Shown here piece after piece: positions 17,715-57,928 of a stretch of DNA of 61,267 nucleotides. The first letter of the stretch is position 1. Each line of letters begins with the position of its first letter. Origin of the DNA: a virus. The stretch is from positions 1-61,267 of IMG/VR virus record IMGVR_UViG_3300042896_001037; one strand, given 5' to 3'. The notes beneath the pieces were generated by a model. It worked only from the letters and a program-made list of their open reading frames with translations. It was not told the DNA's origin and made no database searches. The translations under genes were made by a program, and so were the position numbers.

Positions 17715-18044
17715 ATGAAAAGTGAAGTTAAAAGTGTAAAATTAGGACGTCCTGTAAATGAAAACAGTGTAAGACAATTAAGGATTAAAGAGTTAGAGTT
17801 AAAACGTAGTAACGGAGAGTTAAAGTTAGGACGTCCTGTTAATGAAAACAGTGTAAGACAATTAAGGATTAGTGAGTTAGAGAGTAAAAGAGTAAACGGA
17901 GAGTTGAAATTAGGACGTCCTGTAAATGAAAACAGTGTAAGACAATTAAGGATTAAAGAGTTAAATGAAAAAAGAGAGTTAGGTTTAGTTAAAAGAGGAC
18001 GACCTAAAATGATTAAGAGTGTAACTGATGAAATAGCTGCTTAG
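17715..18044 (+). CDS. GRP-repeat (AT-hook-like) DNA-binding protein, 109 aa
   Basis: Three consecutive 28-residue repeats, each KLGRPVNENSVRQLRI then a charged helix (ELELKRSNGEL and variants), followed by a final KRGRPKMIKS. GRP with flanking basic residues is the AT-hook core that enters the minor groove of AT-rich DNA; the last copy, KRGRPK, is the most classical. The repeats are also near-identical at DNA level (84 bp each, from 17739), so they expanded recently or are kept alike by conversion. A role as nucleoid-like or silencing protein on AT-rich phage or host DNA is inference. Followed by a terminator-promoter junction. Confidence 0.75.
   Translation: MKSEVKSVKLGRPVNENSVRQLRIKELELKRSNGELKLGRPVNENSVRQLRISELESKRVNGELKLGRPVNENSVRQLRIKELNEKRELGLVKRGRPKMIKSVTDEIAA
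17739..17990 (+). repeat. Three 84-bp tandem repeats within a gene
   Basis: Units 17739-17822, 17823-17906 and 17907-17990 encode the GRP repeats; each contains GGACGTCCTGT and the stretch GTGTAAGACAATTAAGGATT. No spacer variation, so not a CRISPR array. Confidence 0.85.
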
Positions 18045-42513: not shown

Positions 42514-43314
42514 ATGATAAGTCTTATCCAATTATTAAAGGAAGTGCAAGATAGTCCTAAAGCTATTATATTAGCGGGGGCACCAGGATCTGGAAAAGGA
42601 ACTATTCTAAGAGATTTAAACTTAAGTAAATTTAAAATTCTTAACATTGATGATACTATAGCAGCTTTATCAAAACAAGATCAATTTACACTAAACCAAA
42701 AAACAGCAGATTCTGAAGATAGAAGTAAATTTATGTCTGCAATGCAAACTGCTGCAAAACAATTAAAAACTCAAGATTTACCTCAGACTATATTAAATAA
42801 AGAATCATTTATTTTAGATGGTACATCTTCATCTTCAAACCAAACTTTAAAACTAAAATCTCAACTTGAAGAAGCGGGATATAAAGTAATGATGTTATAT
42901 GTTTATACTGAACTAGAAACATCTTTAAAACGCAATGAAGAACGATTTGAAAAATCAGGTGGAGAAGATAGAAGTTTACTTCCTGGTGCGGTGTTAGGAA
43001 CATGGCTTATGGTAGCTAAAAATTTTCCTTTATACCAACAATTATTTGGTAATAATTTTGTATCTGTATCCAATACTGGTAATAACGAAACATTAAAAGA
43101 TATTGATCAAATTATCCAAAAGTATGTTACCCCATTTGATCCAAAAGATCCAAAACAAAAAACAGAAAAAGAACAAGAAAAATCTAATAAATTAAAAGAA
43201 AAATTAAATATAGAAATTCAAAATTTCCTTGATTCTAATCTAGCTCAAAATATTATAAACTCCTCTGTTTCTAAAGAAGAAGCTCAATCTAAAATAAATG
43301 AATTCATTAGTTAA
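42514..43314 (+). CDS. P-loop kinase (zeta-toxin-like) with N-terminal targeting-like peptide
   Basis: Walker A GAPGSGKGT (22-30) opens a P-loop kinase fold: ILNIDDTIAAL supplies the DD after strand 2 and YKVMMLYVYTELETSLKRNE the later strand, as in zeta toxin/nucleotide kinases. The last 55 residues are charged and helical. The first eleven residues (MISLIQLLKEV) are the short amphipathic peptide shared with many genes downstream. A toxin antitoxin partner is not seen, so a nucleotide or RNA kinase carried in the virion is one reading (inference). Overlaps the next gene by 17 bases. Confidence 0.72.
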   Translation: MISLIQLLKEVQDSPKAIILAGAPGSGKGTILRDLNLSKFKILNIDDTIAALSKQDQFTLNQKTADSEDRSKFMSAMQTAAKQLKTQDLPQTILNKESFILDGTSSSSNQTLKLKSQLEEAGYKVMMLYVYTELETSLKRNEERFEKSGGEDRSLLPGAVLGTWLMVAKNFPLYQQLFGNNFVSVSNTGNNETLKDIDQIIQKYVTPFDPKDPKQKTEKEQEKSNKLKEKLNIEIQNFLDSNLAQNIINSSVSKEEAQSKINEFIS

Positions 43315-44419
43315 ATCACTTATATTTCCACTTTTAGAATCTGAACAAAAAGGTGTTGCTTTAATCCCTGGTGGTTTTAAACCTCCAACCATAGGACATT
43401 TTGTATTAGTTGATGAAGTAGCACAAAATCCTAATTTTGATAAAGTAATTGTTTTGATAGGTCATAAAATAAGAGATGGTGTAACTAAAGAAGAAAGTTT
43501 AGCAGTATGGGATATCTATAAAAAATATCTTCCTTCTAACGTTGAAATTAAAATCTCAGATAACTCTTCACCTATTGCAGATATTAGATCACTTATAAAA
43601 AACAATCCTGACACATACTTCTACCCAGTAGTTGGTATTAGAGGTGAAATGGATTTAGGTGATATAAAACGATTTGATAGTTTAGAAGGTGAATATCCTA
43701 ACTTTAAAACAATAGTAATTAAAACAGAAGAAGGTAAAGATCGAGTTAGTGGAACAAAAACAAGAGCTGCTTTAATTGGTGGTGAAAAAGACAAATTTCA
43801 ATTATATCTCCCAACTGAATTATCACAGGAAGAAAAAGATGGGATTTGGTCTATTTTAACTAAAACCCCACTAAATGAAATAAAATATGCTGAACCTAGC
43901 AAATTTGATTATCCAAAACAATTAAAATCACTTACCGAATTTATGTTAGATAAGGGAATGAATATTAAACCTTTACCTAAAGTAAAATTTGTAGAAGATG
44001 ATGTTGAAAACGCTAGGAATTTTTTCGGTAAAACGGCGTATTACGATCGAAATCAACGCGTTATAGTACTTTATACAATGGATCGTCATCCAAAAGACAT
44101 TATGCGTTCATTTGCGCATGAAATGATTCACCACATGCAAAACTGTGAAGATCGTTTAAATGGTATTTCTACTCAAGACACAAACGAAGAAGGTGATTTG
44201 CCTAAAATTGAAAAAGAAGCATACTTAAAAGGTAATTGGGCTTTCCGAACATGGACAGATACATTAACTAAAGGTATTGAAGGCGATAGAATTGAATGTG
44301 ATAAATGCAATCATAGTTGGCCAATAGTAACTGGAGGCAATGATTTATATGTTTGTCATGAATGTGGACATGATAACACACCTGAATCATTTTTACTGAA
44401 GAATTACTTGAACGAGTAA
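43298..44419 (+). CDS. Nucleotidyltransferase / zinc metallopeptidase / zinc-ribbon fusion
   Basis: Three modules in 373 residues. Residues 22-165: cytidylyltransferase/NMNAT-like fold with GGFKPPTIGHF (TxGH at 31-34) and VSGTKTRAAL, the (I/V)SxTxxR motif. Residues 225-320: a zincin-like domain with HEMIHH (HExxH, 274-278). Residues 334-356: a zinc ribbon (CDKC, CHEC). The first fifteen residues (MNSLVKSLIFPLLES) are the short targeting-like peptide, with LLE-S as a possible cleavage site. The combination is unusual; NMN adenylation or another nucleotidyl transfer plus proteolysis is the direct reading, but the substrates are unknown. It opens with a 17-base overlap with the kinase gene. Confidence 0.75.
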   Translation: MNSLVKSLIFPLLESEQKGVALIPGGFKPPTIGHFVLVDEVAQNPNFDKVIVLIGHKIRDGVTKEESLAVWDIYKKYLPSNVEIKISDNSSPIADIRSLIKNNPDTYFYPVVGIRGEMDLGDIKRFDSLEGEYPNFKTIVIKTEEGKDRVSGTKTRAALIGGEKDKFQLYLPTELSQEEKDGIWSILTKTPLNEIKYAEPSKFDYPKQLKSLTEFMLDKGMNIKPLPKVKFVEDDVENARNFFGKTAYYDRNQRVIVLYTMDRHPKDIMRSFAHEMIHHMQNCEDRLNGISTQDTNEEGDLPKIEKEAYLKGNWAFRTWTDTLTKGIEGDRIECDKCNHSWPIVTGGNDLYVCHECGHDNTPESFLLKNYLNE

Positions 44420-44451
44420 AAAGTAGGTTGTAAATTTATTAAAATTAATAC

Positions 44452-45015
44452 ATGAAAAAAATACCAACTTTACTTGACTTATATGAGGCAATCAAACCAT
44501 ACACTATATATTGTGATATGGATGGTGTGCTTTGTGATTTTGATCAAGGATATGAAAAGTTAACAGGAGAATCTACAGATGAAGCTAATGCTAAAGGTAA
44601 ATCTTATTTTTGGAAACTTTTTAGAGAAAGCGTTGGAAAAAATGAAAAAGATTTTTGGGCTAACTTACCATGGCAACCCGGAGGAGAAGAACTTTGGAAT
44701 TATATTAAATCTTCTTCCCCAAATATCTTATCAGCTCCCGCAGTAGATTTTAATTTACCTCAAGACCAACAATTAAATCCTGAATTTAACCAAGCTATTC
44801 AAGGTAAAAAAGAATGGATTTCTAAACACCTTAATGGTGTAAATAAAGAAATATTTGTTCCTGCTCCTCAAAAATCAACATTTGCAACATCAAAGCATAT
44901 ACTTATAGACGATATGCAAAAAAATATAGATGCTTGGAAGGCAGCTGGTGGTAAAGCAATTTTACATACTTCTGCTTCAAAAACCATAGAAGCTCTTAAA
45001 AAATACGATTTATAA
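44452..45015 (+). CDS. HAD-type 5'(3')-deoxyribonucleotidase-like phosphatase
   Basis: HAD motif I is CDMDGVLCDF (21-30), with the second Asp two residues after the nucleophile, as in the NT5C group. Motif III/IV area shows HILIDDMQKNIDAWKAAGG near the C terminus. The fold is complete at 187 residues. It should dephosphorylate nucleotides. N-terminal KKIPTLLDLYEAI resembles the short targeting-like peptide (LYE-A). Follows the nucleotidyltransferase fusion and precedes 45016 by zero bases. Confidence 0.8.
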   Translation: MKKIPTLLDLYEAIKPYTIYCDMDGVLCDFDQGYEKLTGESTDEANAKGKSYFWKLFRESVGKNEKDFWANLPWQPGGEELWNYIKSSSPNILSAPAVDFNLPQDQQLNPEFNQAIQGKKEWISKHLNGVNKEIFVPAPQKSTFATSKHILIDDMQKNIDAWKAAGGKAILHTSASKTIEALKKYDL

Positions 45016-46223: not shown

Positions 46224-46742
46224 ATGAAAAACCAAAAATTAAACAAAGAATTTTACAGAATGCAACAATTAGCAGGCATTATAAATGAATCATCAGATTT
46301 AACAGCTAACCAAATTGCATTAAATTATTCTAATACTTCCCCTAATACAACCCCAGGTGCAACCCCAGGTGAAACACCTTTAAAAAATAAAATTAGAGAA
46401 ATGATTTTAGCTGAATTAGGTAATCCTGATGATAAAGAAGCAGTTTATGAAGATGGAGAATTAGAAGAAGCTAAAAAAGATGAAGAAGTAGAAGACGTTG
46501 AAATAACAGATACAACTGAAGAAGAACCTGAAGAAGATGTACCGGCTGAAGAAGCACCTGCTACAGGTGGTAGCTTAGAAGACATAGCTGCAGACATGGA
46601 AGGTACAGAAGGCGACTTAATGGATCATTTAATGAAAGCCCTTAAAGTTGCTAAAGGAATGAACAATGAAAAACTAGAAACACAAATAGGAAACACACTA
46701 AAATTTTTCGTTAGCGAATATATTGGTGGAGAAGAACAGTAA
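46224..46742 (+). CDS. Acidic protein with EFYRMQQLAGIINE peptide, 172 aa
   Basis: Residues 9-22 are EFYRMQQLAGIINE followed by S, a (L/I)-x-E-S site. A Pro/Thr/Gly linker (NTTPGATPGETP) leads to a second amphipathic helix (LKNKIREMILAELG), then an acidic stretch of D/E and a helical C terminus with DLMDHLMKALKVAKGM. The same peptide occurs at both ends of the 798-residue protein at 52411. The profile fits a virion-internal or scaffold-like protein; no enzyme domain is visible. Confidence 0.65.
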   Translation: MKNQKLNKEFYRMQQLAGIINESSDLTANQIALNYSNTSPNTTPGATPGETPLKNKIREMILAELGNPDDKEAVYEDGELEEAKKDEEVEDVEITDTTEEEPEEDVPAEEAPATGGSLEDIAADMEGTEGDLMDHLMKALKVAKGMNNEKLETQIGNTLKFFVSEYIGGEEQ

Positions 46743-48238: not shown

Positions 48239-48547
48239 ATGAAAAAATTTCAATTAAAAGAATTAATTAAAGAAGAAATTAAAAATATTCTTGAAAACTC
48301 AGAAGAAAAAATAAATACAGGTTTATTTAATGAAAAATTAAAAGATTTTTATTTAGAATTAAGGAGTAATAAAATAGGAATAAGTACACTTGAATTACAA
48401 AATATATTAGATTTAATTGAATTATTAGTACTTAAAGCTAGAGAAAGCTCTTTAACCCAAGCTCAAGAAGATAGAATTAAATTAATTCTTGATCCTAATA
48501 ATAGATTATCAACTGAAGAAACCCCTCCCGGAGAAACTCCAACATAA
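48239..48547 (+). CDS. Small protein with LKELIKEEI N terminus, 102 aa
   Basis: Begins MKKFQLKELIKEEIKNILEN, the clearest form of the shared N-terminal peptide (ILE-N as possible cleavage). Leu-rich helices follow and the protein ends in ETPPGETPT. No domain recognised. Its stop overlaps the next start by one base. Confidence 0.65.
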   Translation: MKKFQLKELIKEEIKNILENSEEKINTGLFNEKLKDFYLELRSNKIGISTLELQNILDLIELLVLKARESSLTQAQEDRIKLILDPNNRLSTEETPPGETPT

Positions 48548-49784: not shown

Positions 49785-50459
49785 ATGGACAAATCACGTT
49801 TAAAACACCTTATCAAAGAAGTATATTTAAAAAAAGATACTTGCAATTGTGGTTGTCACGATTGTGACAACGTAGGTAATACTGGTGTTGTACTAAATGA
49901 AAGTTTAGTTAAAAAAGAGATATTGTCGGAGAATCTGCGATATCACGTGGATAAACAACTCCCACTTACCGAAAACACGTTCCGATATGGTTCTGAATCG
50001 TTCCTTAATTTATGGGCAGAAGCTCGTTCACTGTATTTACGTGAAATTATTCATGTAAACGAAGATGATAAAGAAATTTTAGAGGAAACTGATTTAGGTA
50101 ACTATGGTTTATATGAAGGTGTTAAAGTACCTTTAGATCTTCTTTTACTTGAAAACGAGGAACTTGAAGAAGCTGAAGGTAAAAAGAAAAACCCACCAAT
50201 TGGAAAACCAAAACGTGGTGGATCTAAAAAATTCTACGTTTACGTTAGAAAACCTGGAGGCGGAATTAAAAAAGTATCTTTTGGAGACACTACAGGCCTA
50301 TCAGCTAAAATAAACAACCCAGAAGCACGTCGTGCATTTGCAAAACGTCATGACTGTGCTAATAAAAAAGATAGAACAAAAGCATCTTATTGGTCATGTC
50401 GTTTACCAAGATATGCTAAATTGCTTGGATTAAAATCATCTTTTTCAGGATTCTGGTGA
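49785..50459 (+). CDS. Conserved virion-like protein, basic C-terminal domain, 224 aa
   Basis: The C-terminal 75 residues (GGSKKFYVYVRKPGGGIKKV, then PEARRAFAKRHDCANKKDRT and SYWSCRLPRYAKLLGL) are a module I know from conserved structural-region proteins of marine T4-like phages. N terminus: DKSRLKHLIKEVYLKKD, the shared peptide, then a Cys/His patch (CNCGCHDC). Several L-x-E sites follow in the first hundred residues (VLNE-S, ILSE-N, PLTE-N), more than expected by chance and suggestive of stepwise prohead processing. Four bases overlap with the next gene. Confidence 0.7.
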   Translation: MDKSRLKHLIKEVYLKKDTCNCGCHDCDNVGNTGVVLNESLVKKEILSENLRYHVDKQLPLTENTFRYGSESFLNLWAEARSLYLREIIHVNEDDKEILEETDLGNYGLYEGVKVPLDLLLLENEELEEAEGKKKNPPIGKPKRGGSKKFYVYVRKPGGGIKKVSFGDTTGLSAKINNPEARRAFAKRHDCANKKDRTKASYWSCRLPRYAKLLGLKSSFSGFW

Positions 50460-50866
50460 TGGATAGGCTTCGAAAACTTATTAACGAAGTTCTTTCTGAA
50501 GAAAAGAAAAAACGAGACAGATGTCTTCGTATTGCAGATCGCAAATATGATAAACCATCTGCTTACAAATCGGGTGCTGTTGTAAAATGCCGCCAAGGAA
50601 CTATTTGGAAAGATTTAAAAGAAGAAGTAATTCAAGAAAAAGTTAAAGAAACCCTCCGTACTTGGTTTTCCCGCAAAGGTGCACCTGGTAAAAAAGGTGG
50701 ATGGGTAGATTGCAACGCACCAATCAGAAAAGATGGTGATATAACAGGATATAAAGCATGTGGTAGGGAAAAAGGAGAAACACGTTCAAAATATCCTTCA
50801 TGTCGTCCTACAGCAGCTCAATGTAAAACACCTGGTAAAGGTAAAACTTGGGGTAAAACAAAATGA
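50456..50866 (+). CDS. Cys-rich virion-like protein (DUF5872-like), 136 aa
   Basis: Starts MMDRLRKLINEVLSEEKKKR (shared peptide with VLSE). Then RCLRIADRKYDKPSAYKSGA and VKCRQGTIWK resemble the DUF5872-type module, and GGWVDCNAPIRKDGDITGYK with CGREKGETRSKYPSCRP complete a Cys-rich basic C terminus (four Cys). Basic overall, so DNA or capsid binding is plausible. ATGA overlap with the previous and next genes. Confidence 0.7.
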   Translation: MMDRLRKLINEVLSEEKKKRDRCLRIADRKYDKPSAYKSGAVVKCRQGTIWKDLKEEVIQEKVKETLRTWFSRKGAPGKKGGWVDCNAPIRKDGDITGYKACGREKGETRSKYPSCRPTAAQCKTPGKGKTWGKTK

Positions 50867-51441
50867 TTAAATTAATAAACATATTAAAAGAAATTACTGA
50901 AGGTAAACAAATAGGAGAAATTTATCATTTTACCTCACTAGACTCAACACCTGATATATTAGAATCTGGAAAATTAGAACCATCCCCAGATAGATCAGAA
51001 AAATTAGGATTTATATCATTTACAAGAAATAGAGCTTTATCAACTTTAGGAGGTTTTAAATCTCAAGTTAGAATAACAATAGATGGGGATAAATTATCAA
51101 ATAAATACCAAATTCTTCCATATGCTCAACTTAAACCTGAAATCAAAAGAGATGAAAAAGATTGGGATACTCCATATTCTCGATCTACCCAAAATTCAGA
51201 ATCAGAATTGATAATTCCTTCTAAAAAATACAGTGGTAAAATTAATATAACACCTTATATTAAAAAATTAGATATAATAATTTATGATGATATGGACACA
51301 TATCATGAGGATCAAATAGGTGAAATTAATAAAATTAATAATATTTCTAAAAAATTAAATATTCCTGTAGAATATTACAAATATCCAAATCGAAAAAATA
51401 ATTCATATTGGTCTCCTCAAAAAAATAAAACTGTAAATTAA
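50863..51441 (+). CDS. ADP-ribosyltransferase-like protein with ITE-G targeting peptide
   Basis: 192 residues. After MIKLINILKEITE-GK (shared peptide, with ITE-G matching the T4 prohead protease consensus), the sequence shows the three ART landmarks: IYHFTS (H22), LGFISFTRNR (S52-x-T) and SESELIIP (E113-x-E115), with DGDKLSNKYQILPYA between. That layout (H...SxT...ExE) is typical of bacterial mono-ADP-ribosyltransferase and related folds. T4 carries Alt, also an ADP-ribosyltransferase, in its head with a targeting peptide; this gene could be the equivalent, which is inference. Target unknown. Confidence 0.65.
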   Translation: MIKLINILKEITEGKQIGEIYHFTSLDSTPDILESGKLEPSPDRSEKLGFISFTRNRALSTLGGFKSQVRITIDGDKLSNKYQILPYAQLKPEIKRDEKDWDTPYSRSTQNSESELIIPSKKYSGKINITPYIKKLDIIIYDDMDTYHEDQIGEINKINNISKKLNIPVEYYKYPNRKNNSYWSPQKNKTVN

Positions 51442-51446
51442 AAATT

Positions 51447-51872
51447 ATGATTAAATTAACAGATATATTAAGCGAAGCTGAATTAAATAAATGTCCAATT
51501 CCAACTCAAAATATAGAGTTGAATTTACAAAATAGACAAAAATCAATCAATGAGTATGGATATGGACCTTTAAATCCAAATGAACCAAATGATAAGTTTT
51601 GGCAAGCAAAAGTAGATATGTGGCAACTAGATTCTGTAGAAGAAGCTAAAACTTCACGTTGTGGTAATTGTGCGGCATTTGATGTTACAACAAAAACATT
51701 AGATTGCATAGCTAAAGGAATTGGCACAGATGGAGGATCAGAAGATCCATTTGATGTTATTAAAGCTGGAAAATTAGGATATTGTAGAATGCTTAAATTT
51801 AAATGTGCTGCTGCTCGAACCTGTGATGCTTGGGTTGTTGGTGGTCCTATTACAGATGACAAAACCGTATAA
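51447..51872 (+). CDS. Cysteine-rich conserved phage protein, 141 aa
   Basis: N-terminal IKLTDILSEAELNK is the shared peptide (LSE-A). The C-terminal half has a regular Cys pattern: RCGNCAAFD, LDCIAKG, GYCRMLKFKC and RTCDAWVVGGP, six Cys in total, like a conserved protein of marine T4-like phages; the pattern recalls small Fe-S or zinc proteins. Function unknown. Overlaps the next gene by 17 bases in another frame. Confidence 0.7.
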   Translation: MIKLTDILSEAELNKCPIPTQNIELNLQNRQKSINEYGYGPLNPNEPNDKFWQAKVDMWQLDSVEEAKTSRCGNCAAFDVTTKTLDCIAKGIGTDGGSEDPFDVIKAGKLGYCRMLKFKCAAARTCDAWVVGGPITDDKTV

Positions 51873-52119
51873 CGATATAGAAGTTACAGATAAATATATT
51901 ATTCGTGAATTTAACGAAAATATAGACCCAATAGAACTTATGTGGCATCGCGATGATGAATCTCGCACTATTGAAATTTTAGAAGATACAAATTGGCAAC
52001 TTCAATTAGAAAATTGCTTGCCTACCTCACTAAAAGATCGTATATTCATCCCAAAACACGAATGGCATCGTGTGATTAAAGGAACAGGAACTTTAAAATT
52101 AAAAATACATAAATTATGA
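51856..52119 (+). CDS. Conserved phage hypothetical, cupin-like, 87 aa
   Basis: MTKPYNDIEVTDKYIIREFN then ELMWHRDDESRTIEILEDTN and FIPKHEWHRVIKGTGTLKLK. The combination WHRD...EVLxxxxWQxQ...IPKxxxHRVIKG is seen in a small family of phage proteins with a single-domain beta fold. The paired His could bind a metal. Start ATG at 51856 chosen because it removes an improbable Leu-rich extension. Confidence 0.7.
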   Translation: MTKPYNDIEVTDKYIIREFNENIDPIELMWHRDDESRTIEILEDTNWQLQLENCLPTSLKDRIFIPKHEWHRVIKGTGTLKLKIHKL

Positions 52120-52373
52120 AATTAAATAATTTAAAACAATTAGTTAAAGAAGAACTTAATCGTACTTTAAATGAAGTTAAAGTCAAAATCGAGTATATTA
52201 CAGAAGACCCAAAGGATGGCGGCCCAGACTTTTCTGGATCTACAATAGAACAAATTAATCAAGCTGATTTTGATAAACATAAAGATAACGTTCAATCTAG
52301 TTTTTGGAGAGAAATAGCTAAATCAGTAACAGATGAACGTATTTATAAAGTAACAGAAGTAACAAAACTATAA
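52116..52373 (+). CDS. Small protein with LKQLVKEEL N terminus, 85 aa
   Basis: MKLNNLKQLVKEELNRTLNE then VKVKIEYITEDPKDGGPDFS. The first 20 residues are the shared peptide (TLNE-V); the rest is a small alpha/beta piece. ATGA overlap with the previous gene. Confidence 0.65.
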   Translation: MKLNNLKQLVKEELNRTLNEVKVKIEYITEDPKDGGPDFSGSTIEQINQADFDKHKDNVQSSFWREIAKSVTDERIYKVTEVTKL

Positions 52374-52410: not shown

Positions 52411-54807
52411 ATGGATAAAGAATTTTTAAGAATGCAGCAATTAGCAGGTATTATAAATACTAATTCAGACCACGACCCAATATGTGAAATATTTGTTGAA
52501 TATCTAACTGAACTTCATTTATTAAAAAATTATTATTCTAAAGGCATTTTAAAAGAAAATATATCTGTAAATGAAATAAATCTTCTTGAAGATACATTTA
52601 GAGAAAAGATTAAAAATTGGTTTACAAAAAACGCAATCAAACCAACAGAAGCTTATATATTAACTTTAATAAATAAGTTTGAAAAATCAGCAAAAAAATT
52701 AGGAATTGTAGATTGGAAAGATTCTCTGTTTAAATTTTCAAATACAGATTATACTGAAAAAAACTCAGATAAATTTTTCCCAGATATAGAAGATGGTAGT
52801 CCTGTAACTAAATCCGATAAAGTAAATAAAACAGCTTTAGCTTTTTTAGGTATTTTTATAACTAAACTAGTTATTGCTACTTCATTATCTTTATCAACTC
52901 TTATTCCCCAAGCTCAAGAAGTTCCTCCTAGTTTTACTGATACAGCTTCAATAGAAAATGTAAGTGATGTAAATAAAGAAAAAATAGAAAACATTGAGCA
53001 AAAAGCTAAAGAATCAATTAAAGCAAATTTTTCACAAGATGACCCATTAAAAAACCCAATAAAAACCCCAATAATTACATCAGATTCTTTAGATGTAGTA
53101 GATGTTGAATTTCCTACAGGTGAATTTGAACTTGATGCAGATTTAGAAAAAGAATTAGTAAATAAATTAGTTGATAATGTTAAAAAAACTATAAGTTCTA
53201 ATAAAAACATTGATAGTTTAACCATTGAATATGGAGGATCAATTGATGATATTGGAAGCGATACAGGAGATGAAGATAATCCTGATGGCCCTGATAAAGA
53301 CGGATTAAAAGATCTTAGAACAGGTGTTGGAAAAAATATAGCAGATAAAGCAATAAAAATATTAAACTCTTCTTTTAAAAACATTAAATTTAATTCAGTA
53401 AAATTCGATAATAAAGATAATAAAGCAGGAATTGGATTTGATCTTAACACCTCTGAAAAAGATCCAACCCCAAAATCACCACCTGTTTTCCCACTAGATG
53501 CTAAACGAAAAGAAAAACCACCTCGAATTCTCCCAACCCCTAAACCTTTAGATGAACCCTCAACTAAAGGTACAGATGAACCTTTAGTTAATGATCCAAA
53601 ATTAGATACAAAATCAGACACCCCAATTCCTACTGACCTTGGAAGAGATGTTACTAATATTGCTAACTTAAATAGAAATAATCAAATAGCATTTGTTTTA
53701 GCTAAAACTAATAATAAACTTAATTTATATAGACAATTAGGTGTAAAAAATATAATAAATATTCCTGATGGAGAATTTAATAATATAGCTACTAAAGGAG
53801 AATATAACGGAAAAAAGGTTACTCCCCAAGCTCAACTTTTAGCACAAAATGTTATTAGATCAAGAAAAAACCCTAATACATTTATTAATGCATACGCTAA
53901 AATAACAGGAACAAACCTGGGAGGAAGTAGACGAAAAGCATCAATTACAACAGGTGCAAAAGGTCAATCATCAAGTGCTCCTATTAAAGAAGAAGCATCA
54001 ATTGATAAAATATTAGCAGATAATTCACTTCAAACTACCTTTAAACAAAAAGCATTTTTAGCTAAATTAATAAATGTTATATATTATGGAGAAGAAGGAA
54101 AAGATGTTTTAGATATAGAATCATCTACAGATGATAGATTTAAAAAAGAATATAAAAAAATTCCATCTCCTTTAGGCAGCCAAGAAAAAGGTGAAAGATA
54201 TGTTTATTTTGATAAACTTCAAAATAAAAACCCAGATAAATATGATACTAAAGTTACTAAAAATATAGTTAGTAAAATTCCCCAATTATCAATTTTATTA
54301 AATAAAATCAATACTAAAGCAGAATTAGCAGATTTTATACTAGCTTTATTCCTTCATACAAATGAACAAGGAAGTAGTCTTTTTAGTGATAAAAAAATAT
54401 TTGCAACTAATACAGGAAAAGTTAGATCAGCTCTTTTTGGATTAAATAATAGAATTCCAAAATCCCTCCAAGAAATATTATTTGGAGAAGCAGAAGAAAC
54501 CCCTGAAACACCAGATAAAAATTTATTTGATGTTGAAAAATTTTATAAGTTAATTGATTCGAAACCAACACTTTTAGCTAAATTAAAAAATATAGATAAT
54601 ATAGAAGAATTTTATCAATTATGTTTACGAGTAATATTCCCATTACTTAATGATACTTTTAAAACTGAAACAGGAGTATCTCAATTAAAACAAGCTATAG
54701 CTCTGGCTGCTAACTCTTCTACAAAATATAAATCTATATTAGATGCTAAACCAAAACCAGTAAATGAAGAATTTTATAGAATGCAACAAATAGCTGGATT
54801 AATATAA
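52411..54807 (+). CDS. Large protein with RMQQLAGII peptides at both ends, 798 aa
   Basis: No enzyme domain recognised. Residues 4-15 are EFLRMQQLAGII and the last twelve are EFYRMQQIAGLI, so the same peptide brackets the protein. A hydrophobic helix lies at about 144-163 (ALAFLGIFITKLVIATSLSL); then a low-complexity, Pro-rich and charged linker (about 345-390), and a helical C-terminal half rich in Lys and Asn (for example LAKTNNKLNLYRQLGVKNII). It is the largest of the candidate cargo or core proteins. The terminator and early-type promoter follow within 100 bp. Confidence 0.65.
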   Translation: MDKEFLRMQQLAGIINTNSDHDPICEIFVEYLTELHLLKNYYSKGILKENISVNEINLLEDTFREKIKNWFTKNAIKPTEAYILTLINKFEKSAKKLGIVDWKDSLFKFSNTDYTEKNSDKFFPDIEDGSPVTKSDKVNKTALAFLGIFITKLVIATSLSLSTLIPQAQEVPPSFTDTASIENVSDVNKEKIENIEQKAKESIKANFSQDDPLKNPIKTPIITSDSLDVVDVEFPTGEFELDADLEKELVNKLVDNVKKTISSNKNIDSLTIEYGGSIDDIGSDTGDEDNPDGPDKDGLKDLRTGVGKNIADKAIKILNSSFKNIKFNSVKFDNKDNKAGIGFDLNTSEKDPTPKSPPVFPLDAKRKEKPPRILPTPKPLDEPSTKGTDEPLVNDPKLDTKSDTPIPTDLGRDVTNIANLNRNNQIAFVLAKTNNKLNLYRQLGVKNIINIPDGEFNNIATKGEYNGKKVTPQAQLLAQNVIRSRKNPNTFINAYAKITGTNLGGSRRKASITTGAKGQSSSAPIKEEASIDKILADNSLQTTFKQKAFLAKLINVIYYGEEGKDVLDIESSTDDRFKKEYKKIPSPLGSQEKGERYVYFDKLQNKNPDKYDTKVTKNIVSKIPQLSILLNKINTKAELADFILALFLHTNEQGSSLFSDKKIFATNTGKVRSALFGLNNRIPKSLQEILFGEAEETPETPDKNLFDVEKFYKLIDSKPTLLAKLKNIDNIEEFYQLCLRVIFPLLNDTFKTETGVSQLKQAIALAANSSTKYKSILDAKPKPVNEEFYRMQQIAGLI

Positions 54808-56234: not shown

Positions 56235-56774
56235 ATGAAAATAGGATTTTGCGGTACAATTTCAGTAGGTAAAACTACATTAGTTAATGCTTTAAAAGAA
56301 TTACCAGAGTTTGCAGATTATCATTTTGCAACAGAACGTTCAAAATATTTACGTGATTTAGGTATTCCTTTAAACACAGATTCAACATTAAAAGGTCAAC
56401 TTATATTTTTAGCTGAACGAGCTAGTGAATTACTTCATGAAAATATGATAACAGATCGTACAGTAATTGATGTTATGGCATTTAGTCATTTATCAATTAC
56501 AATTCCATTTTTTATATCTGCTGATTTAAATAAAGCTGTATCTGAATTAATACGAGATTATGATTATATATTTTATGTTTCACCTGAAGGTGTAGAATTA
56601 GAGGATAATGGCGTTCGTGTAGTAGATTCTGAATATAGAATGGAACTTGATAAAACAATTAAAAACTTACTAGAACAACATAAATTTAAATTTAATACTA
56701 TTACAGGATATGCTGAATTATCAGGTACTACCGAGGAAAGAATACAAAAAATTAAACAAGTAATGTCCCTTTAA
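56235..56774 (+). CDS. NadR-like P-loop kinase/ATPase
   Basis: 179 residues. Walker A GTISVGKTT (7-15) and ITDRTVIDVMAF (a DR...D segment like the kinase lid or Walker B) lie in a fold with HFATERSKYLRDLGI in between and FNTITGYAELSGTTEERIQK at the end, as in the NadR ribosylnicotinamide kinase domain and AAA_28 phage kinases. Nicotinamide riboside, another nucleoside or a different phosphate acceptor may be the substrate. Eighteen bases after the flavoprotein gene on the same transcript. Confidence 0.75.
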   Translation: MKIGFCGTISVGKTTLVNALKELPEFADYHFATERSKYLRDLGIPLNTDSTLKGQLIFLAERASELLHENMITDRTVIDVMAFSHLSITIPFFISADLNKAVSELIRDYDYIFYVSPEGVELEDNGVRVVDSEYRMELDKTIKNLLEQHKFKFNTITGYAELSGTTEERIQKIKQVMSL

Positions 56775-57028: not shown

Positions 57029-57928
57029 ATGAAACATACTCGATTACTTGAAATTATACGTGAAGAAATAGCTGGTGCTTTAAATGAAATAGAAAAGGGA
57101 AATATTAAACTACCTAAAGGAACACCCCAAAACTCTATTGAACAATATACTGATAAAGGATTTGATGTAGAAATAGAACTTGAAGAAGATGCTTTAAATG
57201 AAGAACCTGATTTTGGTGGACAATTAGATAAAAAAGTAGCAGCAAAATACGGTGAAGAAGATACATTAGAAGCAGCTACTGAAAAAATTACTAATAGAGT
57301 ATTATCTGATAAAGGTATAACTAAAGCTGAAGTAGCTAAAATGGATAAAGATACACTTAAAGTATTACTAAAAGATATCCGTGCTTTTATTTCCCAAAAG
57401 AATCAAACCCCAGAAGTAACAGCAGCTCTTGAAAAACAAAAAGATATTGAATCTAGTGAACCTGGAGGATATACTGGAAAACAATTACAAGATAACCAAA
57501 CTAATAAAGCCATTTTAAGAGCATTAGGATTTGAATCTAAAAAAGGACCAAAAGGACCAACTAAACCAAAAGCAGAAAAACCAACTTCTACAGGTAAAAA
57601 AGGAAGACCAGCAAGTGAACTAAAAGCAGAAAAAACAGCTACTCTTACAAAGGGAGATGACGGATTTGATTCAGTAGATGCTTCAGATGCAGATAATGAT
57701 AAAGAAGCAACACAAAATATAGGTAGTGATTCAACAGCAAAAAAATTAGGTAATTTAGCTACAGGTAAAGAAGAAACATTTAATAGAATTTTAGGTTTAG
57801 TTGAAAAATATAAAGATGATAAAGATAAAGTTGATGCTTTTATTAATAAAGCTAAAAACGAATATAAACTCTCAAAAACATTATTAGACCAGTTAAAACG
57901 TGTTGCTGGTAGAGATGTTAAAATTTAA
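57029..57928 (+). CDS. Charged protein with LLEIIREEI N terminus, 299 aa
   Basis: Begins MKHTRLLEIIREEIAGALNE (shared peptide, ALNE-I). Long charged helical segments (AAEKITNRVLSDKG-type), a basic linker with KGRPAS (AT-hook-like) at about 189-196, and a C-terminal helix FNRILGLVEKYKDDKDKVDA. Profile of a scaffold or DNA-associated virion protein; no known domain. Confidence 0.65.
   Translation: MKHTRLLEIIREEIAGALNEIEKGNIKLPKGTPQNSIEQYTDKGFDVEIELEEDALNEEPDFGGQLDKKVAAKYGEEDTLEAATEKITNRVLSDKGITKAEVAKMDKDTLKVLLKDIRAFISQKNQTPEVTAALEKQKDIESSEPGGYTGKQLQDNQTNKAILRALGFESKKGPKGPTKPKAEKPTSTGKKGRPASELKAEKTATLTKGDDGFDSVDASDADNDKEATQNIGSDSTAKKLGNLATGKEETFNRILGLVEKYKDDKDKVDAFINKAKNEYKLSKTLLDQLKRVAGRDVKI

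Follow-up and report, generated by a model that had tools for sequence, protein, structure and literature searches.

Do phages other than T4 send an ADP-ribosyltransferase (ART) into the host from inside the head, and could such an enzyme be recognised when its sequence is unrelated to the known one? Alt of phage T4 is the textbook injected ART, and DarT chemistry is a bacterial anti-phage weapon. The question is raised by a gene, P0001, in the IMG/VR virus record IMGVR_UViG_3300042896_001037 (positions 1 to 61,267, the whole stretch analysed and here called the window), whose product has a short N-terminal leader, a possible protease site and a putative ART domain in succession (Table 1). The evidence set out below suggests that P0001 is probably a mono-ADP-ribosyltransferase of a new DarT/Tpt1-like phage family, which its leader would direct into the head and which would be injected to modify a host macromolecule.

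P0001 is a real gene under purifying selection, because four near copies in IMG/VR are 77-98% identical to it and dN/dS against the 77%-identical relative is about 0.34. Its start codon shares bases with the stop of the preceding gene (ATGA), and the N-terminus of the product reads MIKLINILKEITEGKQIGEIYHFT. On its own P0001 has no match in Pfam, PHROGs or PDB sequences. The sequence-only reading had pointed to H22, S52-x-T and E113-x-E115, directly behind MIKLINILKEITE-G, and all of these are present in the open reading frame (S52-F-T54 at the second motif). The loose order H..SxT..ExE is common by chance, occurring in 4 of the 49 window proteins of at least 120 residues and in 4.9% of shuffles, so the motif as first stated proves little. 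A sharper form, HxT..Sx[TA]R..ExE, picks out P0001 only in the window and 0.01% of shuffles, and this pattern was sharpened after relatives had been seen.

Those relatives were reached stepwise from weak tblastn matches in cultured phages. They include Microcystis phage Mel-JY01, Vibrio phages such as D484, Alishewanella phage Slickus01 (five copies), Pseudomonas phages Lu11 (three copies) and HRDY3, Dickeya phage JA29 and Salmonella phage Sen-NF (two copies each), Rhizobium phage RHph_I42, Salicola phage SCTP-2 and two very large uncultured phages; searching IMG/VR with profiles yielded a further 46 and 8 loci, which partly overlap. Among 28 aligned family members from unrelated phages, H22, S52 and E115 never vary and E113 and R55 hardly do, giving a family motif of H-x-T ... 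S-x-x-R ... E-x-E, and all four close relatives of P0001 keep H22, S52 and E115. Position T54 varies among the 28 sequences, so the earlier ART motif holds for its histidine, serine and glutamates and S52-x-T had to be given up as a conserved element. The family is widespread in phages and has no name in the databases searched: every copy in annotated records is labelled "hypothetical", and with relatives as queries Pfam, PHROGs, PADLOC and NCBIfam returned scattered matches, nearly all weak, among them Tox-ART-HYD1 (0.016) and DarT (E 0.021, one family member only). A 2CompARG match (E 8e-4, one member) did not recur in a scan of seven longer members and was rejected. A PDB sequence search with the family profile ranked DarT1 first, at a non-significant E of 0.37. 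Bacterial and archaeal genomes, scanned twice with few patterns, yielded no relative, and on this weak evidence the family may be confined to phages.

What fold does the family adopt? An AlphaFold model of P0001 built with the 28-member alignment (pLDDT 72, pTM 0.71) has a leader helix at residues 2-12, followed by a domain of alternating strands and helices up to residue 174. In Foldseek the only PDB matches at an E of 0.001 or below are yeast Tpt1 (7yw4, 3.4e-5) and DarT (7yk3 and 7omw, about 6e-4 to 7e-4). VIA-align 2 places the C-terminal lobe of Tpt1/KptA (PF01885) closest among solved folds, with Z 12.5 over 118 residues for 7yw4, and gives Z 7-9.4 for most other Tpt1 and DarT chains (8.6-9.0 for DarT 7omw and 7yk3); other ARTs such as TreTu, pertussis toxin and PARPs lie below these, at Z 4-6. 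A second family member, L045 (pTM 0.77), repeats the result with Z 11.7 for Tpt1 and 9.7, 9.5 and 8.6 for DarT of M. tuberculosis, DarT of Thermus and E. coli DarT1, so that likeness to DarT spans Z 8.6-9.7 over the two models. An ART core, as the sequence-only reading had predicted, is thus present in both, and since both resemble Tpt1 and DarT the fold of P0001 appears nearest to these two; to judge from the models, it is almost certainly an ART fold. A DarT alignment built here can be joined to the family profile around H-x-T, with a pairwise E of 2.5e-5 and a probability of 75%, and E115 was equated with the glutamate of DarT by eye rather than from coordinates. Structure matches among viral models are family members, with weaker ones to baculovirus ORF32 and iridovirus 422L; these two may belong to the ORF28 family, which PMC9503650 relates to DarT.

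The leader is the second line of evidence. In T4, gp21 cleaves after L/I-x-E, and N-terminal capsid-targeting propeptides of 10-19 residues bring internal proteins into the head (PMC9026906); T4 Alt is cleaved at ITE-6 (PMC5694885). The leader of P0001 has this position, length and ending, with its site at ITE-13, and, like the T4 sequences, it recurs on unrelated cargo within one phage. Its best matches in the window are the starts of two unrelated genes, at 42514 and 51447 (each p about 0.0004 against internal stretches), and three more genes of the same cassette match at p 0.007-0.012; a third match at p about 0.0004, in the gene at 56235, is a P-loop match deeper in the protein, not leader-like, and was set aside. 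Counting [ILV]xE[AGS] at N-termini gives 5 of 21 cassette genes against 3 of 70, a mild excess only, and leader similarity was therefore relied on instead. In the close relative L004 an unrelated protein of 82 residues (272-520) starts with MIKLTDLLKE, and the close relative L002 has the leader MNKETFRMQMLAGIITE-G.

Other phages have different leaders in the same place: MKIxxLYESxLEEG in the Alishewanella phage, MRAQEFLAEA in a 262-kb uncultured phage, and elsewhere MKLLMENWRKFLKEG, MLSYKEYLAE and MKYIKIFENF; that of Lu11 (MKIQLAVA) has no L/I-x-E site. Across the family, 26 different members have a leader, and in 25 of them [LIVMF]xE precedes the ART domain, as against 22% of equal-length internal stretches. 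Thirteen of these 26 leaders have a better match among the non-ART N-termini of their own stretch of genome than in nearly all other stretches; for internal control segments the figure is 3 of 26. Whole-record pattern scans of five records found leaders at two to six places each, mostly clustered, and none in reversed controls; of the five sites in the 262-kb phage, four lie at the starts of unrelated proteins. The ITE-G leader thus behaves as a capsid-targeting and cleavage sequence of T4 type, as do leaders in several phages unrelated to this one, and these comparisons of sequence make it likely that P0001 is packaged and, after loss of the leader, injected. In relatives found through the terminase (70-100% identical; L084, L072) the sequence runs on into a gene for a head-maturation protease (phrog_207, E 3e-49) and one for a major head protein of T4 type (phrog_138); near the N-terminus of the latter, ..NQAKQLVTE-ASATNQGG.. 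contains a predicted cleavage site of the fitting kind.

On this evidence, the 13-residue leader would dock the precursor on the prohead core, as T4 capsid-targeting sequences do, and the head-maturation protease of the phage would cut after ITE-13. The mature enzyme would remain in the head beside the DNA, enter the cell at infection and, early on, move ADP-ribose from NAD+ onto a host macromolecule. Cleavage, packaging, injection, NAD+ chemistry and target are what we infer here. A host macromolecule is the favoured target, with nucleic acid put slightly before protein because of the likeness to DarT and Tpt1; E-x-E keeps an amino-acid target possible. That such leader-carried DarT/Tpt1-like enzymes ADP-ribosylate host or rival nucleic acid on entry from the virion is a tentative generalisation, and one we would rather doubt than assert.

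Several observations weigh against delivery of an active enzyme from the head. Model confidence is low over the leader (pLDDT 55-72), the portal gene is cut off by the end of the window, so that the protease is seen only in relatives, and at half of the loci no leader is shared within the stretch examined. The leader is missing altogether from the Dickeya and Salmonella phage copies, so delivery in the head does not extend to every member, and where an arginine two residues beyond E115 is common in the family, the clade of P0001 has isoleucine. The leaderless copies, with the Rhizobium phage member (which lacks a T4-like leader), speak for an active ART made in the infected cell and left unpackaged, similar to T4 ModA/ModB or to the toxin of a toxin-antitoxin pair, the leader then being a folding or docking helix. 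This seems unlikely, as L/I-x-E leaders are common to unrelated neighbours in several lineages. As for a toxin, no macrodomain or antitoxin-type Pfam match occurs in the 10 cassette proteins searched, although for the next gene (51447) Pfam gives no match of any kind. No DarG macrodomain antitoxin was recognised beside P0001, and the sole Pfam match of the gene upstream, DUF5872, falls just under the cut-off.

If P0001 is packaged and injected as we propose, it could still act on NAD+ itself. ART folds include NADases, and viruses have enzymes acting on NAD-derived signals (PMC9503650), so an injected NAD+ glycohydrolase, or an interferer with ADP-ribose signals, might blunt NAD-based defence and tag no macromolecule; we consider this a little less likely again, given that nucleic acids are the substrates of its nearest structural neighbours, Tpt1 and DarT. 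The change from arginine to isoleucine would suit an ART fold that is no longer catalytic and has a structural or DNA-binding role among the internal proteins of the head, an improbable outcome when H22, S52 and E115 are kept in the four close relatives and the whole family and dN/dS is about 0.34; P0001 is likely to be catalytically active. A phage RNA-repair 2'-phosphotransferase of the Tpt1/KptA kind, for which the best fold match would argue, is most improbable of all, since the N-terminal lobe is missing (just a leader of 13-17 residues stands before the domain) and Pfam PTS_2-RNA (PF01885) does not match P0001.

Table 1. Features of P0001 and of leader-bearing genes in the window
Feature	Position	Strand	Basis
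P0001, ART-fold protein gene, 192 aa	50863..51441	+	ORF, relatives, model, fold matches
13-residue N-terminal leader MIKLINILKEITE, candidate capsid-targeting sequence	50863..50901	+	Helix 2-12 in model; like leaders elsewhere
ITE-G, predicted prohead-protease cut after E13, before G14	50893..50904	+	L/I-x-E rule (PMC9026906); Alt precedent (PMC5694885)
Predicted ART domain, about residues 18-176	50914..51390	+	Model range 3-176 against Tpt1 and DarT
H22 (H-x-T), invariant	50926..50928	+	Family alignment
S52, invariant	51016..51018	+	Family alignment
R55, nearly invariant	51025..51027	+	Family alignment
E113-S-E115; E115 invariant, presumed catalytic glutamate	51199..51207	+	Family alignment; Q-A-E in DarT profile, matched by eye
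Zeta-toxin-like kinase (Pfam E 1e-16), leader MISLIQLLKE	42514..43314	+	Leader similarity, Pfam
Unrelated protein, leader MIKLTDILSE-A	51447..51872	+	Leader similarity
Coupled upstream gene, DUF5872-like, leader MDRLRKLINEVLSE	50459..50866	+	Leader similarity, Pfam just below cut-off
Gene with leader-like N-terminus MKKFQLKELIKEEIKNILE	48239..48547	+	
Gene with leader-like N-terminus MKLNNLKQLVKEELNRTLNE	52116..52373	+	
Gene with leader-like N-terminus MKHTRLLEIIREEIAGALNE	57029..57928	+	

Other proteins in the window and its relatives bear comparable extensions. The Zeta-toxin-like kinase, behind a leader of the P0001 type, is a candidate injected kinase, and in the same block (43298-45015) follow a cytidyltransferase-like protein (PHROG E 3e-7) and a nucleotidase-like HAD protein, each extended at the N-terminus by a short stretch that ends in x-x-E (LLE-S, LYE-A). 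In the 262-kb phage an MRAxEF leader stands on a different kind of protein adjoining the ART gene (VIVVDVQPEYSG; L046 1821) and on a protein of 490 residues (L158). Two loci encode fusions in which the family ART domain lies behind a weak GNAT match (L050 2099-3340) or a zincin-like metallopeptidase match (L059 1643-3340), neither match reaching the Pfam cut-off; at the junction stands an L-x-E-like site (LMKEA, LKES), as if the protease would free the parts. A different ART-like type (YHGSPKKFEKF in L009 6979-7491, YHGTKKKFEKF in L012 5696-6148) carries the leader of the ART paralogues of the Alishewanella and Pseudomonas Lu11 phages.

A second tag, F-x-RMQ-x-LAGI, is N-terminal in two window proteins (46224-46742 and 52411-54807), in one of them C-terminal too, and it ends a likely scaffold protein beside the head gene in related phages (L084 17316-18704, L072 9765-10811, L092, L078). 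Over the window and the terminase-related loci it occurs three times N-terminally, nine times C-terminally and once internally, L002 9526-10224 has both tags in tandem, and it may be a second prohead-docking signal. Elsewhere in the window, 17715-18044 encodes a protein of near-identical repeats (GRPVNENSVRQLRIKELE..).

What appears new is a family, apparently undescribed, with a DarT/Tpt1-like fold and with leader peptides whose sequences point to delivery in the head: an ART family unrelated to Alt recurs behind leaders that vary between phages and are often common to other genes within one. If the leaders are confirmed as head-targeting, injected proteins could be listed from sequence, by going from the leader of a known cargo to its copies, and if the nucleic-acid reading is true, phages would have turned DarT chemistry into an injected attack. 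The survey in PMC9503650, in its available text, names N4-like, PART, ORF28, p0068-like, Alt/VIP2 and Mod families and deduces packaged, injected myovirus ARTs from fusions and gene neighbourhoods, the same general idea of packaging and injection as here; that text holds no description found of the P0001 family or of leader peptides, and identity with the p0068-like or N4-like family is possible.

How, then, does P0001 compare with the enzymes it resembles? With DarT (PF14487) it shares a like fold, an H-x-T opening alignable by profile and the glutamate of the last motif, but it has E-x-E where DarT has Q-A-E and, unlike DarT, an N-terminal leader; the DarT profile has no match in the window, and by the profiles of those families P0001 is neither a DarT nor a Tpt1. 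The leader is alike in build to the capsid-targeting sequences of T4 IPI-IPIII, which are N-terminal, 10-19 residues long, end in L/I-x-E and sit on unrelated cargo (PMC9026906); unlike those, its letters vary by phage lineage, and its function would be that of its T4 counterparts. With Alt, P0001 has in common an ART (predicted in P0001), an N-terminal propeptide ending in ITE, a myovirus and a presumed early, host-directed action. Alt is placed in the R-S-E clade (PMC9503650), whereas the P0001 family has a DarT/Tpt1-like fold and, in all aligned members, histidine instead of the arginine of the Alt/VIP2 clade at the first motif. The proposal of an Alt analogue with an unrelated sequence is borne out to that extent, and P0001 would represent Alt-like delivery of an unrelated ART.
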